From Candidatus Aramenus sp. CH1 (GTDB lineage: Archaea > Thermoproteota > Thermoprotei_A > Sulfolobales > Sulfolobaceae): 64,000 nt of DNA. The stretch's first letter is position 1. Each line of letters opens with the position of its first letter. A model generated the notes under the pieces. It saw nothing but the letters and a program-made list of their open reading frames with translations. It ran no database searches and was not told the origin of the DNA. Below are positions 14,826 through 52,186 of the stretch, in pieces. The stretch lies in contig JALBWU010000007.1 in the NCBI GenBank assembly GCA_022678445.1, positions 77,501 through 141,500 on the forward strand. The letters run 5' to 3'. The position numbers were made by a program, and so were the translations under genes.

Positions 14826-14872
14826 CGACCTTCCCTCTTGTTGATTCACTGCAGAGCTTTTAACTCTTGTGC

Positions 14873-14920
14873 TCCGAGCTTTGGCCCCTCATCATGTCTC
14901 AGCTAGTCTGAAGTCTTCAC
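14873..14920 (-). ncRNA. Candidate C/D box guide RNA (upstream of aIF5A)
   Basis: Minus-strand boxes in order: C GTGAAGA (14914-14920), 11-nt guide, D' CTGA (14899-14902), 3-nt spacer, C' ATGATGA (14889-14895), 12-nt guide, D CGGA (14873-14876). Total 48 nt. The D box has one mismatch to CTGA. The spacing is that of archaeal C/D sRNAs used by fibrillarin/Nop5/L7Ae for 2'-O-methylation. Targets are not identified. Confidence 0.6.
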
Positions 14921-14957
14921 AGCAATTTTAATATAAAGAGGAGGATTTTAAGATATT

Positions 14958-15104: not shown

Positions 15105-15152
15105 ATGAAGAACCCAAGTACTTTGAGCGGTGAAATGACCTGTCTCGGCTGA
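15102..15152 (+). ncRNA. Candidate C/D box guide RNA (after the zinc-ribbon gene)
   Basis: Boxes: C TAGATGA (15102-15108, weak), 14-nt guide, D' TTGA (15123-15126), 3-nt spacer, C' GTGAAAT (15130-15136), 12-nt guide GACCTGTCTCGG, D CTGA (15149-15152). The 51-nt size and symmetric spacing are typical. The D guide is complementary to GAGACAGGTC, which resembles the conserved GUGAGACAG segment of 23S rRNA (from memory, unverified). It fills the gap between convergent genes exactly. Confidence 0.55.
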
Positions 15153-20397: not shown

Positions 20398-20448
20398 CGA
20401 ATGAAGAATGTGGCGGACCCTGAGCAGTGATGACAAGACCTACGCTGA
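20398..20448 (+). ncRNA. Candidate C/D box guide RNA (between rtcB and a zinc-finger gene)
   Basis: Boxes: C CGAATGA (20398-20404, weak), 15-nt guide, D' CTGA (20420-20423), 3-nt spacer, C' GTGATGA (20427-20433, perfect), 11-nt guide CAAGACCTACG, D CTGA (20445-20448). Total 51 nt. Three of four boxes are excellent. It occupies the 3' half of the 20317-20449 gap and ends right at the stop of the convergent zinc-finger gene. Targets are not identified. Confidence 0.6.
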
Positions 20449-20759: not shown

Positions 20760-23540
20760 ATGAGACAATTAAACCAGAGGATCCTAGAACTTATGAATGA
20801 GAGGAAGTGGGACAAACTTACTGACATACAGAGGAAAGCATTAACGCCAATACTTTGCGGGAATAATACGCTGATAATAGCACCAACGGGCTATGGCAAG
20901 ACAGAGGCTGCCCTTTTGCCAGTGCTTAGCCAAATGTTGGACACTGGGTCGAACCCGGTGTCGTTAATTTACGTTACCCCCCTCAAGGCACTGATTAACG
21001 ACATAACCCTCAGGATAGAGTGGTGGTCCTCTAGGCTAGGCTTTACGGTTAGCAGGAAGCATGGAGAGGTGCCCCAAAAGGAGAAGAACATGAGACTAAA
21101 GAGAGCCCCACACATCCTCGTCACTACCCCTGAGGGCCTTGAAATAGACCTAGACTGGGCCTCCAAGTTTAGGGAGTTTTACAAGAACGTCAAGTGGGTC
21201 ATAGTAGATGAGATCCACGAACTTATAAACTCCAAAAGGGGGGTCCAGTTAGCCGTATTGCTCGAGAGGCTAAAGGCGTACTCTGGTTACGATTTCCAGA
21301 GGATAGGCCTCTCCGCAACCATAACCAACGAGGACGTAGTTGCGTCTTTCCTCTCTGGCTCCTCCTCCAGGAAAACCACGGTGGTCAAGGTTAGGGACTC
21401 GAAGAGCTTCGAGCTAAAGATAAGAAAGATTAAGGGGGAGGAAGTCTGGTCAAACTCCGCAAGGGAGTTAATCTCCTCGCTAGAGCCCCCAACCCTTGTG
21501 TTCACCAACTCGAGGTTTCTAACCGAGAGACTTCACGAGGAGCTCGACAAGCTAAACGTTGACGGAATCTTCGTCCATCACTCTTCGATCTCTAGGGAGT
21601 CCAAGAGCAACGTTGAGGAGTACTTGAGAAAGGGAAAGGTGAGGGCAGTAATTTGTACTAAAACCCTGGAGCTCGGAATAGACGTTGGCGACATCAAGAA
21701 GATTGTCATGTACCGACCTCCTCCCTCCGTCGCTTCCTTCCTACAGAGGTTAGGGAGAAGCGGTCACTACGTCCAGGGCGTGCCTAGAGGGGAGATACTA
21801 TGCGTTTACGACTTTGACGTAATAGAGGCCATCGCCATATACCAGTTGGCAAAGAAGGGAATAGTTGAGAAACCTAAGATAACCTCTCCCCTGGACGTGG
21901 CGACTAGGGAGATCCTCGGGATGGTTCTTCAGACGGATGGCGTATCTAAGGACTACGTCTACGACGTCTTAACTAAGTCTTATCCCTTTAGGAACATGAC
22001 GAGGGAGAAGTTCGATGAGCTCGTCGAGTACCTTGTTAAGAACAACCTCTTGGTGGAGGACGGTGAGAGGCTAAGGATAGGAAAGTTCTTCTTCAAGCTC
22101 TGGAACTTCAACAGGAACAAGAACTTCACGTGGAGCAGGAACTTCTCCGAGTTCTTCTCCCTCATAAACAGTAACGACGCCTTCACCTTGAGGCATAACG
22201 ACAACGTAGTTGGGGAAATAGACGCAATCTACGTTTACAAGCACATTAGGGTTGGGGACGTCATAAGGGTTGGGGGAAAGCTTTGGAAGATAACTAGGGT
22301 AAACAACAGCAAAATGGCCATAGACGTAGTGCCAGCGGACGCAAATGAGGGGGAAATCCCCGTATGGCGGGGAGACGGGATACCCAAATCGTATCTCTTG
22401 CCTAAGCAACTCGAGAAGGTCCTAAGAGGCCTAGATAACTTAGATCAAGGAATTGTGGAGAGGAGCTCCGTTGAGGAGGTCAAGAAACTGGTCTCCTTGT
22501 ACGCCAAGGAGAACCTCCCATTGCCTTCAAGGTCTACCGTGATAGTGGAGAGAAAGGACAAGGAGGTGATCTACACAACGCTCATAAACGAAAAGGTCTC
22601 CAACACAATGGCCCACCTTCTCCTTTACTTGTCCTCTTCTAAGGACTCATTGAACTCTTACGCTAGGGCCTCTATTTACGGCTTTTCGATTGGTTCAGAC
22701 AGGGACTTCCTGGAGGATTTGCTCAAAGTTGAGGAGAAGAAGCTGAAGAGGTTAATAGTAAAGGCCATACTTAGGTCGCCTATGTTTTTCTCAGTTCTTA
22801 AGGAGATACAGGTCAGCTTCGGGAAAATAGGGAAGGTTGACCTAAAGGAAGACAAGACCCTAGTAGCGGAAGCCCTTAGACAGACGGTGAGCAAGTACTT
22901 CAGCATAAAGGGGACGCTGAAGTTCATCGGAAAGATCAAGAATAAGGAAATTAAGGTAATTAAAACCGATAAAAGGACTCCATTGGCAAATGCTGTGCTG
23001 TCCCACGCCCCAATAAAGCCTTGGTTGCTGAGCGTTTACTCCCTGATCTACGAGTCCCTGAAAGGAGGCGCTTACACGATATCGGAGCTATCCGAGCAGA
23101 TAGGCATTCCAGAGAAGAGCTTAGAGAACAAGTTAAAGCAAATGAGAAAACCCTCTTCCAAGTATAGGATAACAAGCTTCATAGACGTCGACAGCGGGGA
23201 GACCAGATGGTGCGTTATGGACGAACTTCCCAAGATAGTCGAGTCAGACGATTACTATACCTCGTTTACTGTGTTAAACGACAACGAGACCTTCATAGCG
23301 GTGCTGAGGCAAGTTAACGGTGATGGAAACTCGGAGATCATCTTCAAGCCCAAGGACTTGCTAAAGGACGATATAAGGGTAAGGATACCTTACGAGGAGA
23401 TAGCCGAGCTCAGGATAACCGATCCTGTAGACCCTCTGGTGAGCAACTTATCGCCGAGGTTCTACTACGTCAACAAGAAGGTATTGCCTTACCTACTGCT
23501 GAACGCGGTAGCTTATATACAGAACTTAAAATACTCTTAG
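20760..23540 (+). CDS. lhr: Lhr-family superfamily 2 helicase (archaeal Lhr)
   Basis: ATP-dependent 3'-5' DNA/RNA helicase of 926 residues. Q-motif-like TDIQRKAL, Walker A APTGYGKTEA (41-50), DEIH box VDEIHEL near residue 150, SAT motif LSATITNED, and helicase motif VI QRLGRSGHY are all visible; the second half contains the Lhr-type winged helix and core C-terminal region. Such proteins act in repair and replication-fork processing. It begins with ATG and is read alone, divergent from the zinc protein. Confidence 0.93.
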   Translation: MRQLNQRILELMNERKWDKLTDIQRKALTPILCGNNTLIIAPTGYGKTEAALLPVLSQMLDTGSNPVSLIYVTPLKALINDITLRIEWWSSRLGFTVSRKHGEVPQKEKNMRLKRAPHILVTTPEGLEIDLDWASKFREFYKNVKWVIVDEIHELINSKRGVQLAVLLERLKAYSGYDFQRIGLSATITNEDVVASFLSGSSSRKTTVVKVRDSKSFELKIRKIKGEEVWSNSARELISSLEPPTLVFTNSRFLTERLHEELDKLNVDGIFVHHSSISRESKSNVEEYLRKGKVRAVICTKTLELGIDVGDIKKIVMYRPPPSVASFLQRLGRSGHYVQGVPRGEILCVYDFDVIEAIAIYQLAKKGIVEKPKITSPLDVATREILGMVLQTDGVSKDYVYDVLTKSYPFRNMTREKFDELVEYLVKNNLLVEDGERLRIGKFFFKLWNFNRNKNFTWSRNFSEFFSLINSNDAFTLRHNDNVVGEIDAIYVYKHIRVGDVIRVGGKLWKITRVNNSKMAIDVVPADANEGEIPVWRGDGIPKSYLLPKQLEKVLRGLDNLDQGIVERSSVEEVKKLVSLYAKENLPLPSRSTVIVERKDKEVIYTTLINEKVSNTMAHLLLYLSSSKDSLNSYARASIYGFSIGSDRDFLEDLLKVEEKKLKRLIVKAILRSPMFFSVLKEIQVSFGKIGKVDLKEDKTLVAEALRQTVSKYFSIKGTLKFIGKIKNKEIKVIKTDKRTPLANAVLSHAPIKPWLLSVYSLIYESLKGGAYTISELSEQIGIPEKSLENKLKQMRKPSSKYRITSFIDVDSGETRWCVMDELPKIVESDDYYTSFTVLNDNETFIAVLRQVNGDGNSEIIFKPKDLLKDDIRVRIPYEEIAELRITDPVDPLVSNLSPRFYYVNKKVLPYLLLNAVAYIQNLKYS

Positions 23541-23542
23541 TA

Positions 23543-23593
23543 GTGATGAGCCTCACACTTAAGATGAAAGGTGATTGGGGCCCGTGTTACTGA
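23543..23593 (+). ncRNA. Candidate C/D box guide RNA (between lhr and alba2)
   Basis: Boxes: C GTGATGA (23543-23549, perfect), 14-nt guide, D' ATGA (23564-23567), 3-nt spacer, C' GTGATTG (23571-23577), 12-nt guide GGGCCCGTGTTA, D CTGA (23590-23593). Total 51 nt, starting two bases after the lhr stop codon. The geometry is identical to the candidate at 15102. Targets are not identified. Confidence 0.65.
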
Positions 23594-47928: not shown

Positions 47929-49254
47929 ATGCCTCTTGAAAGTTATAAAGGTAAAGCCCTGGACGTGTTATCTCAAATTGGGGCTGAAATAGGGGACATT
48001 ATTGAAATAGAGAAAGAGAAGGTGAGGGTAAAGGGCATATTGATGCCCTCATATTCCAAGGACGACGACATCGTGGTCGTAAAAATGGACAACGGCTATA
48101 ACGTGGGAGTGTCCGTGGAGAACGCCAGCGTCAAACTGGTGGAAAAGAAGGGACTTGGCAAGCCCTTGACGGGAAAGGGAGACAACAGGAAAGGAGAGGT
48201 CAAAATAATAAGCACTGGAGGTACCATAGTGAGCAAGGTGGAGTACGAGACAGGTGCCGTTAGGCCAGCCTTGACCACTGAGGAAATAGTGCAGTTCCTA
48301 CCGGAGATCAACGAGATAGCGAAGGTGTCGTCTGAGATACTCTTCAGTATACTTAGCGAAAACATGACGCCGGAGAACTGGGTGAAAATAGCCGAGTCAG
48401 TTAAGAGGGCCTTTGACGAAGGTAGCTTAGGCGTAATTGTAACCCACGGCACCGACACCATGGCCTACACGGCGTCAGCGTTAGCTTTTTCGTTTAAGGG
48501 CCTTCAAGGCCCAGTAGTCCTAGTTGGTTCCCAAAGAAGCAGTGACAGACCAAGTAGCGACTCCCCAATTAACCTACTCAGCTCTGTTATCCTCGCTAAG
48601 AACGCCCCATTTGGGGAAGTAGTCGTGAACATGCACGGCGAAAGCTCAGACACTTACACCCTAGCACACAGGGGAGTTAAGGTAAGGAAAATGCACACCA
48701 GCAGGAGGGACGCCTTCCAAAGCATTAACGACAAACCCCTCGCTAAGGTGTTCTGGAGGGAAAGGGAGGTGCAGCTCTTGAGGTCGGACTTCTTCCCTAA
48801 ACGGGAGGAGAGCGTACTTGACTCAAAGTTCGATAGCCGGGTCTTTCTCCTCAAGTACTACCCCGGAATGGACCCCTCTATCGTTGAGCACCTAGTTGAG
48901 GAGAAAGGTGTAAGGGGGATCGTAATAGAGGGGACTGGACTTGGACACACGTCCACTCAGTTCCTAGAACAGTTCAAGAAGGCGTCAAGGGAGGGAGTTT
49001 TCCTGGGAATGACCTCCCAGTGTCTCTTTGGGAGGGTCAACATGAACGTCTACACTACTGGAAGACTTCTCCAGCAAGCTGGAGTAGTCCCGCTGGAGGA
49101 CATGCTTCCGGAAGTGGCTTTAGTGAAGCTGATGTGGGTCTTGGCCCACGAAGACGATGTCGATAAGGTCAAGTCGCTCATGTTAACTAATATGGCTGGA
49201 GAAATAAACTATAGACATTCGGTAGACTTTTACCCAAGGTGGAACCATGAGTAA
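47929..49254 (+). CDS. gatD: Glutamyl-tRNA(Gln) amidotransferase subunit D
   Basis: Archaeal-specific asparaginase-like subunit that frees ammonia for Gln-tRNA(Gln). N-terminal GatD domain (1-90), then L-asparaginase motifs [17 protein letters not shown] and [16 protein letters not shown]; the catalytic threonines and the lysine region [12 protein letters not shown] are visible. The stop overlaps gatE by 8 bp, as needed for equimolar GatDE. Confidence 0.97.
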
Positions 49255-51139
49255 GCTCGACTATAGATCCCTTGGATTAAAGGTAGGGCTTGAAATTCAC
49301 CAGCAACTCGACACTCAGCACAAGCTTTTCTGTAACTGCCCTACGTTACTCACCGAGGAGTACAAGGCGACCCTGGAGAGGTACTTGAGGCCAGTCATGA
49401 GTGAAATAGGCGAAGTGGACGTAGCAGCGCTCTTTGAGTGGGAAAAGGGGAAGAAGTACGTCTACAGGATACCAGAGAAGAGCAGTTGTCTAGTGGAGTG
49501 CGACGAGGAGCCCCCGCACGAGATGAACAGGGAGGCTGTAAAGATAGGCATAGCGATGACGCTGGCGTTCAAGGGCAAGGTAGTCGATGAAATCTATGTA
49601 ATGAGAAAGGAAGTAATAGACGGGTCAAATACCTCCGGGTTCCAAAGAACGTCGATTGTAGGACTAGGGGGTTCAATCCAAGATGAAGAAGGAGAAGTGG
49701 TGATACAGACTGTGGCCATAGAGGAGGACGCGGCGAGGAAAATAGAGGACATGGGGAAGGAGGTAGTTTACAACTTGGATAGACTTGGTATACCTCTAAT
49801 AGAGATCTCGACTGCGCCTGACATACATTCCCCCGAACAGGCTAAGAGGGTGGCCTTCAAGATAGGGCAGATGTTGAGGCTGACCGGAAAGGTGAAGAGG
49901 GGTCTAGGGACTATAAGGCAGGACTTGAACGTTTCCATTGCCAGAGGAGTTAAGATAGAGATCAAAGGTGTGCAAGAGCTCGACTTGATACCAACGATAA
50001 TCGAAAACGAGGCTTTGAGGCAGTACAACCTACTTAGGATAAGGGACGAGTTGAAGAGGAGGGTAACCAAGGACGAAGTATTGGGGAACTTCGATAAGAG
50101 GGACTTGACGGACCTCTTCCAGGGGTCAAAGAGCAAGGTAGTCCAGAACACGCTGAAGTCCGGGGGAAGGGTTTACGGCATCAAGGTCAAGGGGTTCAAG
50201 GGCATATTTGGATGGGAAGTCATGCCGAATAGGCGCTTTGGCACAGAAGTGGCGGACTACGTTAGGGTCTTGGCAGGTCTGGGAGGAATATTCCACTCAG
50301 ACGAGTTGCCTAATTACGGCATAACAAATGAGGAGGTCAAAAAGGTCAAGGACGCCCTGGGCGTAGAGGAGGGCGACGCCTTCGTACTCATAGTGGGACC
50401 AAGGGAGAAGCTGGAGAAGGCGTATGAGGTAATAAGGGACAGGGTACTTTACGCTTTTGAGGGGGTACCCAAGGAGACAAGGGGGGCACAGGAAGACGGG
50501 ACTACAAGGTTCCTAAGGCCACAACCGGGCTCTGCAAGGATGTACCCAGAAACGGACATCCCTCCAATAAGGGTAACAGAGCAATTGCTCGCTGAGGCAA
50601 AGGCCTACATACCGCCTTCTCCTGAGGAAAAGCTGAAGAGTTTGGTGGGACTAGGACTCGGAGAAGAGCTAGCTAAGCAGATTATAAATAGCCCAAGGTT
50701 ATCCCTTTTCGAGGAGCTTACAAGGAAGTACTCGCCCAAAGTACCCCCAGTGGTTATAGCGACAACAATCGAAAACACCGTCAAGTACGTAAAGAGCAAA
50801 GGAGGGAAGACAGAGCTCATTACTGACAACGTCATAGAGGCGGTGATAGCAGGAGTATACAGCGGTGTAATAAACAAGGACTCGATCCCGGAGATCCTGC
50901 TGGAGTACTCGCTAGGTAAGGGAACAATTAACGAGTTGATTTCCAGGTTCTCTTCCATAAGCGACCAGGAGCTGGAGAAGATAGTCAAGGCCACAATTCA
51001 AGAGAACCTAGAGGAGATCAAGAGGAAAAAGGACAAGGCCTTTAACCTAGTCATGGGAAGGGTAATGGCGAAGGTCAGGGGAAAGGCAGAGGGAAAGAAA
51101 GTAGCTGAGTTAATAAAGAGGGAATTGGAGAAAATATAA
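49247..51139 (+). CDS. gatE: Glutamyl-tRNA(Gln) amidotransferase subunit E
   Basis: The kinase/transamidation subunit of archaeal Gat[22 protein letters not shown] opens the GatB-like cradle, with GRIxxxQDLNVSI-like RQDLNVSIA, an AspRS-like insertion and helical YqeY-type tail ([16 protein letters not shown]-like: [14 protein letters not shown]). The 630 residues match. It overlaps gatD by 8 bp. Presence alongside GatC/GatA gives this archaeon both Gln- and probably Asn-tRNA pathways. Confidence 0.97.
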
Positions 51140-51141
51140 AG

Positions 51142-51191
51142 GTGAGGAGTTACCCCCGATCCTGAAAGGTGACGAAAAGGCATTTGTCTGA
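51142..51191 (+). ncRNA. Candidate C/D box guide RNA (after gatE)
   Basis: Boxes: C GTGAGGA (51142-51148, one mismatch), 13-nt guide GTTACCCCCGATC, D' CTGA (51162-51165), 3-nt spacer, C' GTGACGA (51169-51175), 12-nt guide AAAGGCATTTGT, D CTGA (51188-51191). Total 50 nt. It starts two bases after the gatE stop codon. Both D boxes are perfect. Targets are not identified. Confidence 0.68.
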
Positions 51192-51202
51192 CGGTGTAAG
51201 TT

Positions 51203-52186
51203 TTGCTCCCTGACTTTCTACTTAGTATCCTGTTTTCAAACAAATTGGAGAGCTTGAGGTTAGACGACGAAGATCTGTCGGTAGAGCAGTTGCCCCAACT
51301 GCTTAAACTTTCGGGGGTTAAGGAGGTATACTGGAGACTAAACTCCAGGATCGTTGGCCCCGATGGAACATGCATCAGGGCCAAAGGAGAGGGAGACGAG
51401 GTGATTGTAAAGACGCCATTGAAAGTTAAGAGTATACCGTGGAGCTTTGGCAGACTCAACGAGAGAGCCCTCGTTAGCCTAGTCCAAGACCTAATACCTT
51501 CTGGGGAAGGGGAAAGCTACTTAAACCCCTCCCCTTGGCCTAGGGGGAGCCTAAAGCCAGGGGAAGTGATGGCAGAACGCAGGGAAGAAAGGGAAGAGTT
51601 ACAGAATTCCCTGAGCGTGGACACCAGGTACTTCAACCCAGACTTTGTCTACCTAAACCCCTTTTTCATCGAGGTCTCGAAGGAACCTGCAAACTCCCCT
51701 TTCGTCTGTGTCGAACTGGAAGAAGCCTTTTGTTTCGTCTCCTCCTCTCCGATCGAAGTAAGCTTTGAGAACGGAAGGATGAAGGCAGAAGGAAAGGGGA
51801 TTTTAATGGTAAGGGGGAACAACTGGAGGGAGGTGAAGCCTTACAGGCTAAGCTGGGATCTCTCAAACCCTCTAGTAAGGCTGGACTTTAAGCCCAAGTA
51901 CAACGTGAGCCTCTACAGATTGGAGCCAGCTTCTATAGTGCCCTTTTTCCTTGACTACGCTCAGGGAGATCTAGCCTTAGCTTTAGTCAACTTGTCGGAA
52001 AGCCCAGTGATTTCCACGGTATACGTTACCGCCAGGATCACTGAGGCTGAAGTAGTCGACGAGAACGAGAAGGTAGTCCCAGAATTCGACAGAGTAAGGA
52101 TACCGTTTAGAAGGTGGGGAATCCACATCGTAAAGCTGAAGGTTAGGAGGTTAATGGAACAGTACTTGAGGAAAAGAATCATTTAA
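51203..52186 (+). CDS. Hypothetical protein (327 aa), beta-rich C-terminus
   Basis: An alpha/beta N-terminus (LRLDDEDLSVEQLPQLLKLS) and a beta-sandwich-like C-terminus (ALALVNLSESPVISTVYVTA ... PFRRWGIHIVKLKV) that recalls the C-terminal domain of GH38-type enzymes, without catalytic residues that I can identify. The start is TTG at 51203, near the guide-RNA candidate. It ends with a tail overlap with the HTH gene (8 bp). Function unknown. Confidence 0.6.
   Translation: MLPDFLLSILFSNKLESLRLDDEDLSVEQLPQLLKLSGVKEVYWRLNSRIVGPDGTCIRAKGEGDEVIVKTPLKVKSIPWSFGRLNERALVSLVQDLIPSGEGESYLNPSPWPRGSLKPGEVMAERREEREELQNSLSVDTRYFNPDFVYLNPFFIEVSKEPANSPFVCVELEEAFCFVSSSPIEVSFENGRMKAEGKGILMVRGNNWREVKPYRLSWDLSNPLVRLDFKPKYNVSLYRLEPASIVPFFLDYAQGDLALALVNLSESPVISTVYVTARITEAEVVDENEKVVPEFDRVRIPFRRWGIHIVKLKVRRLMEQYLRKRII

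Follow-up and report, generated by a model that had tools for sequence, protein, structure and literature searches.

A probable double-guide C/D box sRNA behind gatE in Candidatus Aramenus sp. CH1, with two predicted methylation targets in the helix 69-71 region of 23S rRNA

Introduction

The locus considered here raises the question of whether a run of C/D-like boxes lying just behind the stop codon of an archaeal gatE gene is a guide RNA, and, if so, which rRNA bases it addresses, how it might be made, and to which known RNAs it may be related. The window, i.e. the whole stretch of DNA that was analysed, comprises 64,000 nucleotides of Candidatus Aramenus sp. CH1 (contig JALBWU010000007.1, positions 77,501 to 141,500); coordinates below are those of the window unless otherwise indicated. 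The element is very probably, on the basis of sequence comparisons, a canonical archaeal double-guide C/D sRNA at the 3' end of the gatDE transcript, guiding two nearby methylations of 23S rRNA. A candidate picked out of raw sequence can now be put forward as a likely guide RNA with two named, predicted target bases in the intersubunit bridge.

Results

Organization of the element

The preliminary description had proposed a C/D candidate after gatE with two exact CTGA boxes, near-perfect C and C' boxes and 13/3/12 spacing, separated from the gatE stop by two bases. Direct reading of the sequence confirmed all of these points, including the coordinates and the gap (TAA at 51137-51139, then AG, then box C). 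The features concerned are the following.

47929..49254, + strand: gatD (NCBIfam NF003217 GatD, 587 bits, cut-off 310)
49247..51139, + strand: gatE, Glu-tRNA(Gln) amidotransferase subunit E (NCBIfam NF003107 GatE, 877 bits, cut-off 456)
51110..51117, + strand: TTAATAAA, a weak candidate TATA box that begins 32 nt before box C, inside the coding sequence of gatE, and may be only coding
51142..51191, + strand: core of the probable C/D box guide RNA, with box C and box D at its ends, assigned from motif, shuffles and conservation
51142..51148, + strand: box C, GTGAGGA, one mismatch to RTGATGA
51149..51161, + strand: GTTACCCCCGATC, the D' guide, complementary to GGCCGGGGGTAAC in the 5' strand of 23S helix 69
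51162..51165, + strand: box D', CTGA, exact
51169..51175, + strand: box C', GTGACGA, one mismatch
51176..51187, + strand: D guide, AAAGGCATTTGT, antisense to 23S CCAAATGCCTTG
51188..51191, + strand: box D, CTGA, exact

The gatD and gatE genes overlap by 8 bases, and gatD is likely the first gene of a gatD-gatE-sRNA transcript. The spacers of the element are 13 nt (C to D'), 3 nt (AAG, D' to C') and 12 nt (C' to D), giving a core of 50 nt. The characteristics of archaeal C/D sRNAs are found throughout, namely the box order C/D'/C'/D (with one mismatch each in C and C'), guide spacers of about 10-14 nt together with a short D'-C' gap, Watson-Crick pairing of the +5 base of both guides to 23S rRNA, and retention in relatives as a unit.

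When at most one mismatch per C box and exact D boxes were required (the strict pattern), the two strands of the window gave two matches (51142-51191 and 20401-20448), and none of 60 dinucleotide shuffles gave any. With a looser C/D pattern there were 10 matches in the window, compared with a mean of 1.2 in 20 shuffles. An Rfam scan assigned the element to no family at gathering score, the best archaeal model being sR11 (20.5 bits vs 39), with snoPyro_CD, sR7 and the other archaeal families likewise below their gathering scores. The isolated element folds no better than shuffled sequences (z 0.21), as expected for a kink-turn RNA in the absence of protein, and folding is therefore left out as evidence.

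Conservation in the family and order

The order sample comprised 41 genomes, covering the species itself, its genus, its family and its order. A BLAST search with positions 51020-51300 matched 23 of these, 21 of the matches reaching the sRNA. Eleven of the 21 end at query position 172, which is the last base of box D (51191), and the remainder, apart from those of the species itself and its sister species, end between positions 167 and 179; two matches consist of just the 55 bases around the sRNA. Conservation runs to the last base of the element, and the sequence behind it is not conserved.

A pattern made up of C', D guide and box D, with at most one mismatch, was found in 40 of the 41 genomes (42 matches, compared with 4 for the reversed control), the sole genome of the order sample without a match being G037. 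The comparison of gatE 3' ends in relatives, which had been proposed as a check on the candidate, gave a uniform result, in that all 25 genomes of the presumably Sulfolobaceae-like family, the species itself included, have the match behind gatE and on its strand. Both guides are present in 23 of these, in all of which box C reads RTGANGA, and the first half of the sRNA has been lost in the other two (G008 and G016).

The position of the gatE stop codon varies within the family. It is the TGA of box C in 14 of the 25 genomes, overlaps box C by one base in two (G012, G019), is the TGA of box D' in four (G007, G009, G015, G017), and lies 2-3 nt upstream of the sRNA in three (the species itself, G001 and G002). 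The window shows a mild variant of the arrangement, since its gatE stop codon has come to lie outside the sRNA. The shifting of the stop codon among box C, box D' and an upstream position, all within one family, provides a clear series for studying the evolution of overlaps. Elsewhere in the order, the 15 other genomes with the pattern comprise five with gatE upstream on the same strand, one with gatE convergent, and nine with no gatE in the locus.

Predicted targets in 23S rRNA

The target search in the species' own rRNA covers the 3' part of 23S, about two thirds of the molecule. Here the D' guide pairs best with GGCCGGGGGTAAC, and the D guide site, CCAAATGCCTTG, ties on score with two wobble-rich sites and has the most Watson-Crick pairs, 10 of them contiguous. 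The D site lies downstream of the D' site, at a distance of 32 nt. For the sister species, G001, the search extended over the entire 16S-23S region, with a pair score weighted for G-C pairs and 300 shuffled guides for each guide; both sites are the single top sites for their guides, and 20/300 shuffled guides score as well for D' and 4/300 for D. The D' match, which has one mismatch at target position 3, is by itself moderately significant. The search of the guides against rRNA, also suggested when the candidate was first noticed, thus places the best 16S/23S site of both guides in one stretch of 23S.

A distant BLAST comparison of the helix-69 region with E. coli gave no match, and the numbering was therefore taken from the annotated K-12 rrlB gene, assuming no gap between the conserved GTAAC/AAAT words and the target positions. 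On this numbering the +5 position of the D' guide falls on the counterpart of E. coli G1906, which belongs to the 5' strand of helix 69, and that of the D guide on the counterpart of A1938; both are predicted sites of methylation. The helices of the target region are named here as 69 and 70/71, in agreement with passages in PMC4644070 and PMC2584109. The word 'methyl' is absent from the main text of the paper on the S. acidocaldarius ribosome determined by cryo-EM (PMC10516650).

As a separate observation, the helix 69-71 region is split by insertions of about 140 to 790 bases between the two target sites in G032 (L053/L056), G038 (L054/L055) and G049 (L208/L211); these are perhaps archaeal rRNA introns.

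Correspondence between the D' guide and its target

Among the genomes tested, five have the helix 69 version GGGAG (A-type), and GGGGG is found in most. The D' guide was compared with the genome's own and with the alternative helix 69 in 27 genomes (24 of the order sample and three of 21 others): 25 fit their own better, two tie and none fits it worse. The ties are G032, an A-type genome with a diverged D' guide, and G008, where the first half of the sRNA is lost; G016, also without the first half, is counted among the 25, with a score that is meaninglessly low. One change, or a few, may account for all five A-type genomes, so that the result is supportive and does not amount to a large independent sample.

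With regard to coverage, the helix-69 sequence was not found in 16 of the 41 order genomes by BLAST, nor in 17 by pattern. The 17 pattern-negative genomes were also negative with a second pattern, and the difference between the two methods is G020, which BLAST matched outside helix 69. A fourth of the 21 others, the Helarchaeota genome G061, has a helix-69 match and was left out of the comparison because its D' guide is of another kind.

Wider distribution

A scan of genome contigs returned at least 118 stretches, in which at least 80 loci were readable; sorting by record title gave 64 archaeal and 16 bacterial loci, the latter serving as a chance control. If a helix-69 guide is defined by an uninterrupted run of at least seven Watson-Crick pairs, both a C box and a helix-69 D' guide stand beside the D guide, among the matches listed, in 59 of the 64 archaeal loci and in none of the 16 bacterial ones. 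In the phylum sample the exact pattern occurs in 157 of 398 genomes, with 0 control matches in the table; 30 loci from this sample include 29 with a C box, 24 of which have the helix-69 guide as well. The phylum of the Helarchaeota locus has a match in 4 of 119 genomes, with a C box in two of the four. The presence of the D guide in 40/41 order and 157/398 phylum genomes makes the sRNA a counter-example to the fast turnover of archaeal guides.

The D' guides of the Nitrososphaeria take two forms, CAGAGTTA and CAAAGTTA. In loci whose record titles name Nitrosopumilus or related organisms, the guide CAGAGTTA matches a helix-69 loop of the form TAACTCTG and not the 5' strand. It is predicted that Nitrososphaeria with CAGAGTTA guides have the loop TAACTCTG and those with CAAAGTTA guides the loop TAACTTTG.

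Fused and possible neighbouring guide RNAs

In G008 and G016, the D guide is the first guide of another C/D RNA (at around position 1500 of loci L203 and L204, respectively), the second guide of which is GCTTGACCG in G008 and ACTTGACCG in G016. This second guide belongs to the element just downstream in 13 of the 23 other family genomes. The fusion looks like a deletion joining two neighbouring guide genes, and is an example of the kind of guide recombination proposed in PMC4644070. The terminal stem of the fused RNA is strong in its G008 form (-26.6 kcal/mol, z -4.45, 0/200 shuffles). The record L126, titled 'Euryarchaeota archaeon', has the same fused guide RNA sequence at this place as the family member G016, and its title consequently looks wrong.

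The downstream element is marked by a conserved TGATGAGCTTGACCRCT in G004, G005, G007, G009, G011, G013, G014, G015, G017, G020, G021, G023 and G024, and is the part fused in G008 and G016; it was not found behind gatE in the window's genus. It may be a further C/D RNA, in overlap with the beginning of the following gene, and its guide has no convincing site in 16S/23S (147/300 shuffled guides as good).

Other C/D-like sequences were observed elsewhere in the window. The second strict match, at 20401-20448 on the + strand (ATGAAGA-12-CTGA-GCA-GTGATGA-11-CTGA), lies between two ORFs, before an lhr-like helicase gene; its D' guide has 12 positions paired with 16S (GGTCCGCTGTGT in G001), with 14/100 shuffled guides as good. 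Two bases after the helicase stop at 23540 begins a sequence of the form GTGATGA-14-ATGA-AAG-GTGATTG-12-CTGA (23543-23593, + strand), which is probably the lhr case with which the preliminary description had likened the present element; its D guide has a 10-pair site in 23S (8/100 shuffled guides as good). A loose C/D candidate at 15105-15152 (+ strand) has a D guide, GACCTGTCTCGG, pairing with 11 contiguous 23S positions (4/100 shuffled guides as good), and the Rfam C/D RNA sR14 lies at 14871-14924 on the - strand (46 bits vs a gathering score of 38).

Discussion

Possible relationship to U15

Box D and the 10 guide bases that precede it match positions 128-141 of the Rfam SNORD15 model in 14 of 14 positions. 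Over the whole SNORD15/U15 model the element scores 14.5 bits, below the gathering score of 75, with only the 14-nt guide and box matching. Yeast snR13 guides 25S positions 2280/2281. To judge by the shared guide, human 28S A3764 is presumably the equivalent of E. coli A1938. SNORD15 guides A3764 of human 28S, and U15/snR13 stands in a table of the conserved modification sites behind snoRNAs of the last eukaryotic common ancestor (PMC3511168, PMC6461891). The site of the D guide is apparently that guided by U15, and is thus a good test case for a snoRNA family predating eukaryotes; whether any single family does so is left open in the relevant passages of PMC3511168. The archaeal counterparts named in those passages are sR12/snR70 and a few others, not U15. 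Neither a published archaeal counterpart of U15 nor mapped methylations were found in the literature searched, which included few subscription papers and no supplements, and a literature search with the letters of the guides returned, among the matches listed, no title recognisably about guide RNAs.

The identity with U15 is probably a matter of convergence, in that guides directed in one register to so conserved a segment of 23S are bound to share their sequence. All archaeal 23S fragments examined that span the segment have the target CCAAATGCC without change, so that the target dictates some 9-10 of the 14 bases and box D four; moreover, the known matches between archaeal and eukaryotic sites are judged compatible with convergence in PMC3511168. 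Less readily accommodated, though compatible with convergence, are the use of the same box (D) and the same register, and the recurrence of the sRNA across the phylum as one recognisable double guide. It may be that the A1938 guide is one RNA gene, older than the divergence of archaea and eukaryotes and represented in the latter by U15/snR13. In archaea it would have kept a second guide that slides along helix 69 by lineage; the conserved function would then be the holding of the helix 69-71 region during assembly, and not any one helix-69 methyl group. We put this forward tentatively, as a possibility that we would not expect to prevail; with a target so conserved, convergence remains the simpler reading.

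Transcription and maturation

The preliminary description had hinted that guide RNAs are made from mRNA 3' ends. With respect to the arrangement this proved apt, the gatE stop being the TGA of box C or box D' in 18 of the 25 family genomes, although guide RNAs inside mRNA 3' ends are an arrangement already described and not new. According to the review PMC7994747, 25% of archaeal C/D sRNA genes overlap the 3' end of an ORF and bear its stop codon, which in almost half of these lies in box C. With respect to the process, production from the mRNA is put forward here as the likely route.

Transcription from a promoter of its own inside the end of gatE, in place of production from the gatDE mRNA, appears rather doubtful. 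The word TTAATAAA lies 32 nt before box C, which suits the spacing rule for archaeal TATA boxes, the nearest relatives have a similar word at much the same position, and the sRNA is also found apart from gatE, nine of the 15 non-family genomes with the pattern having no gatE in the locus. The same word, however, encodes GatE residues, and TATA-like words are missing from this place in several family members. A TATA-like motif is, furthermore, reported for only about 20% of archaeal C/D genes (PMC7994747).

It is very unlikely that the element serves mainly in the control of the gatDE mRNA, as a kink-turn to which L7Ae binds, and not as a guide. RIP-seq with L7Ae in Sulfolobus acidocaldarius yielded 32 mRNA fragments, many with C/D-like motifs (PMC5539422), but here the guide sequences, and not the boxes alone, are conserved and track the rRNA target, and the same sRNA occurs apart from gatE in other families. 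Finally, although TGA-rich gene ends easily mimic C/D boxes, as the roughly 1.2 loose matches per shuffled window illustrate, a chance product of coding or UTR sequence has a negligible probability, and is ruled out by the lack of strict matches in 60 shuffles and by conservation, both of the two guides in 23/25 family genomes and of the C box with a helix-69 guide in 59/64 archaeal vs 0/16 bacterial loci among the matches listed.

The preferred reading is thus that of a double-guide C/D sRNA cut or trimmed out of the gatDE mRNA, likely by protection of the kink-turns and trimming of the rest. A box-protection route of maturation is proposed as a model in PMC7994747, and work by Tripp 2017, as summarised in that review, indicates that the flanks of S. 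acidocaldarius C/D RNAs can be changed without an effect on maturation, whereas the boxes are essential. The kink-turns would bind L7Ae, with Nop5 and fibrillarin then joining. Pairing would engage the 5' strand of helix 69 through the D' guide and, 32 nt further downstream, a segment of the helix 70/71 region through the D guide; the resulting RNP would direct 2'-O-methylation of the G and the A at the 1906 and 1938 equivalents, and may hold the helix 69-71 region open until its release. As the D' guide would occupy one strand of helix 69, the RNP probably delays the folding of this intersubunit-bridge helix, so acting as a chaperone. In free S. acidocaldarius 50S subunits H68 and H69 are unstable (PMC10516650), which agrees with a region in need of help and proves nothing.

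Comparison with known systems

The published S. acidocaldarius set of about 61 C/D sRNAs probably holds an orthologue of the sRNA proposed here. Archaeal C/D sRNAs, reportedly treated by Omer 2000, Tripp 2017 and Lui 2018, resemble it in boxes, size and spacers, in addressing two rRNA sites close together, in overlapping the 3' end of an ORF and in using the helix 69 hotspot. There is no categorical difference, but both guides and the linkage to gatE are kept family-wide, whereas the literature stresses fast turnover. Close double targets, the helix 69 hotspot and 3'-ORF overlap are given as typical of archaeal C/D sRNAs in passages of PMC4644070 (Dennis 2015) and PMC7994747. The Haloferax sRNA for Gm1950 (E. 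coli 1909), homologous sequences of which are reported in 25 archaeal genomes, likewise addresses the 5' strand of helix 69, but its predicted base is three positions off, i.e. 1909 vs 1906 (PMC2584109).

The likeness to SNORD15/U15 extends to the 14/14 bases of the D guide and box D; by contrast, the element is 50 nt long vs the 146 positions of the model, and has a second guide, to helix 69. Yeast snR13 also uses extra pairing near its site (PMC5389607). Viewed against these systems, the sRNA is ordinary in kind and unusually well conserved, with a testable link to U15.
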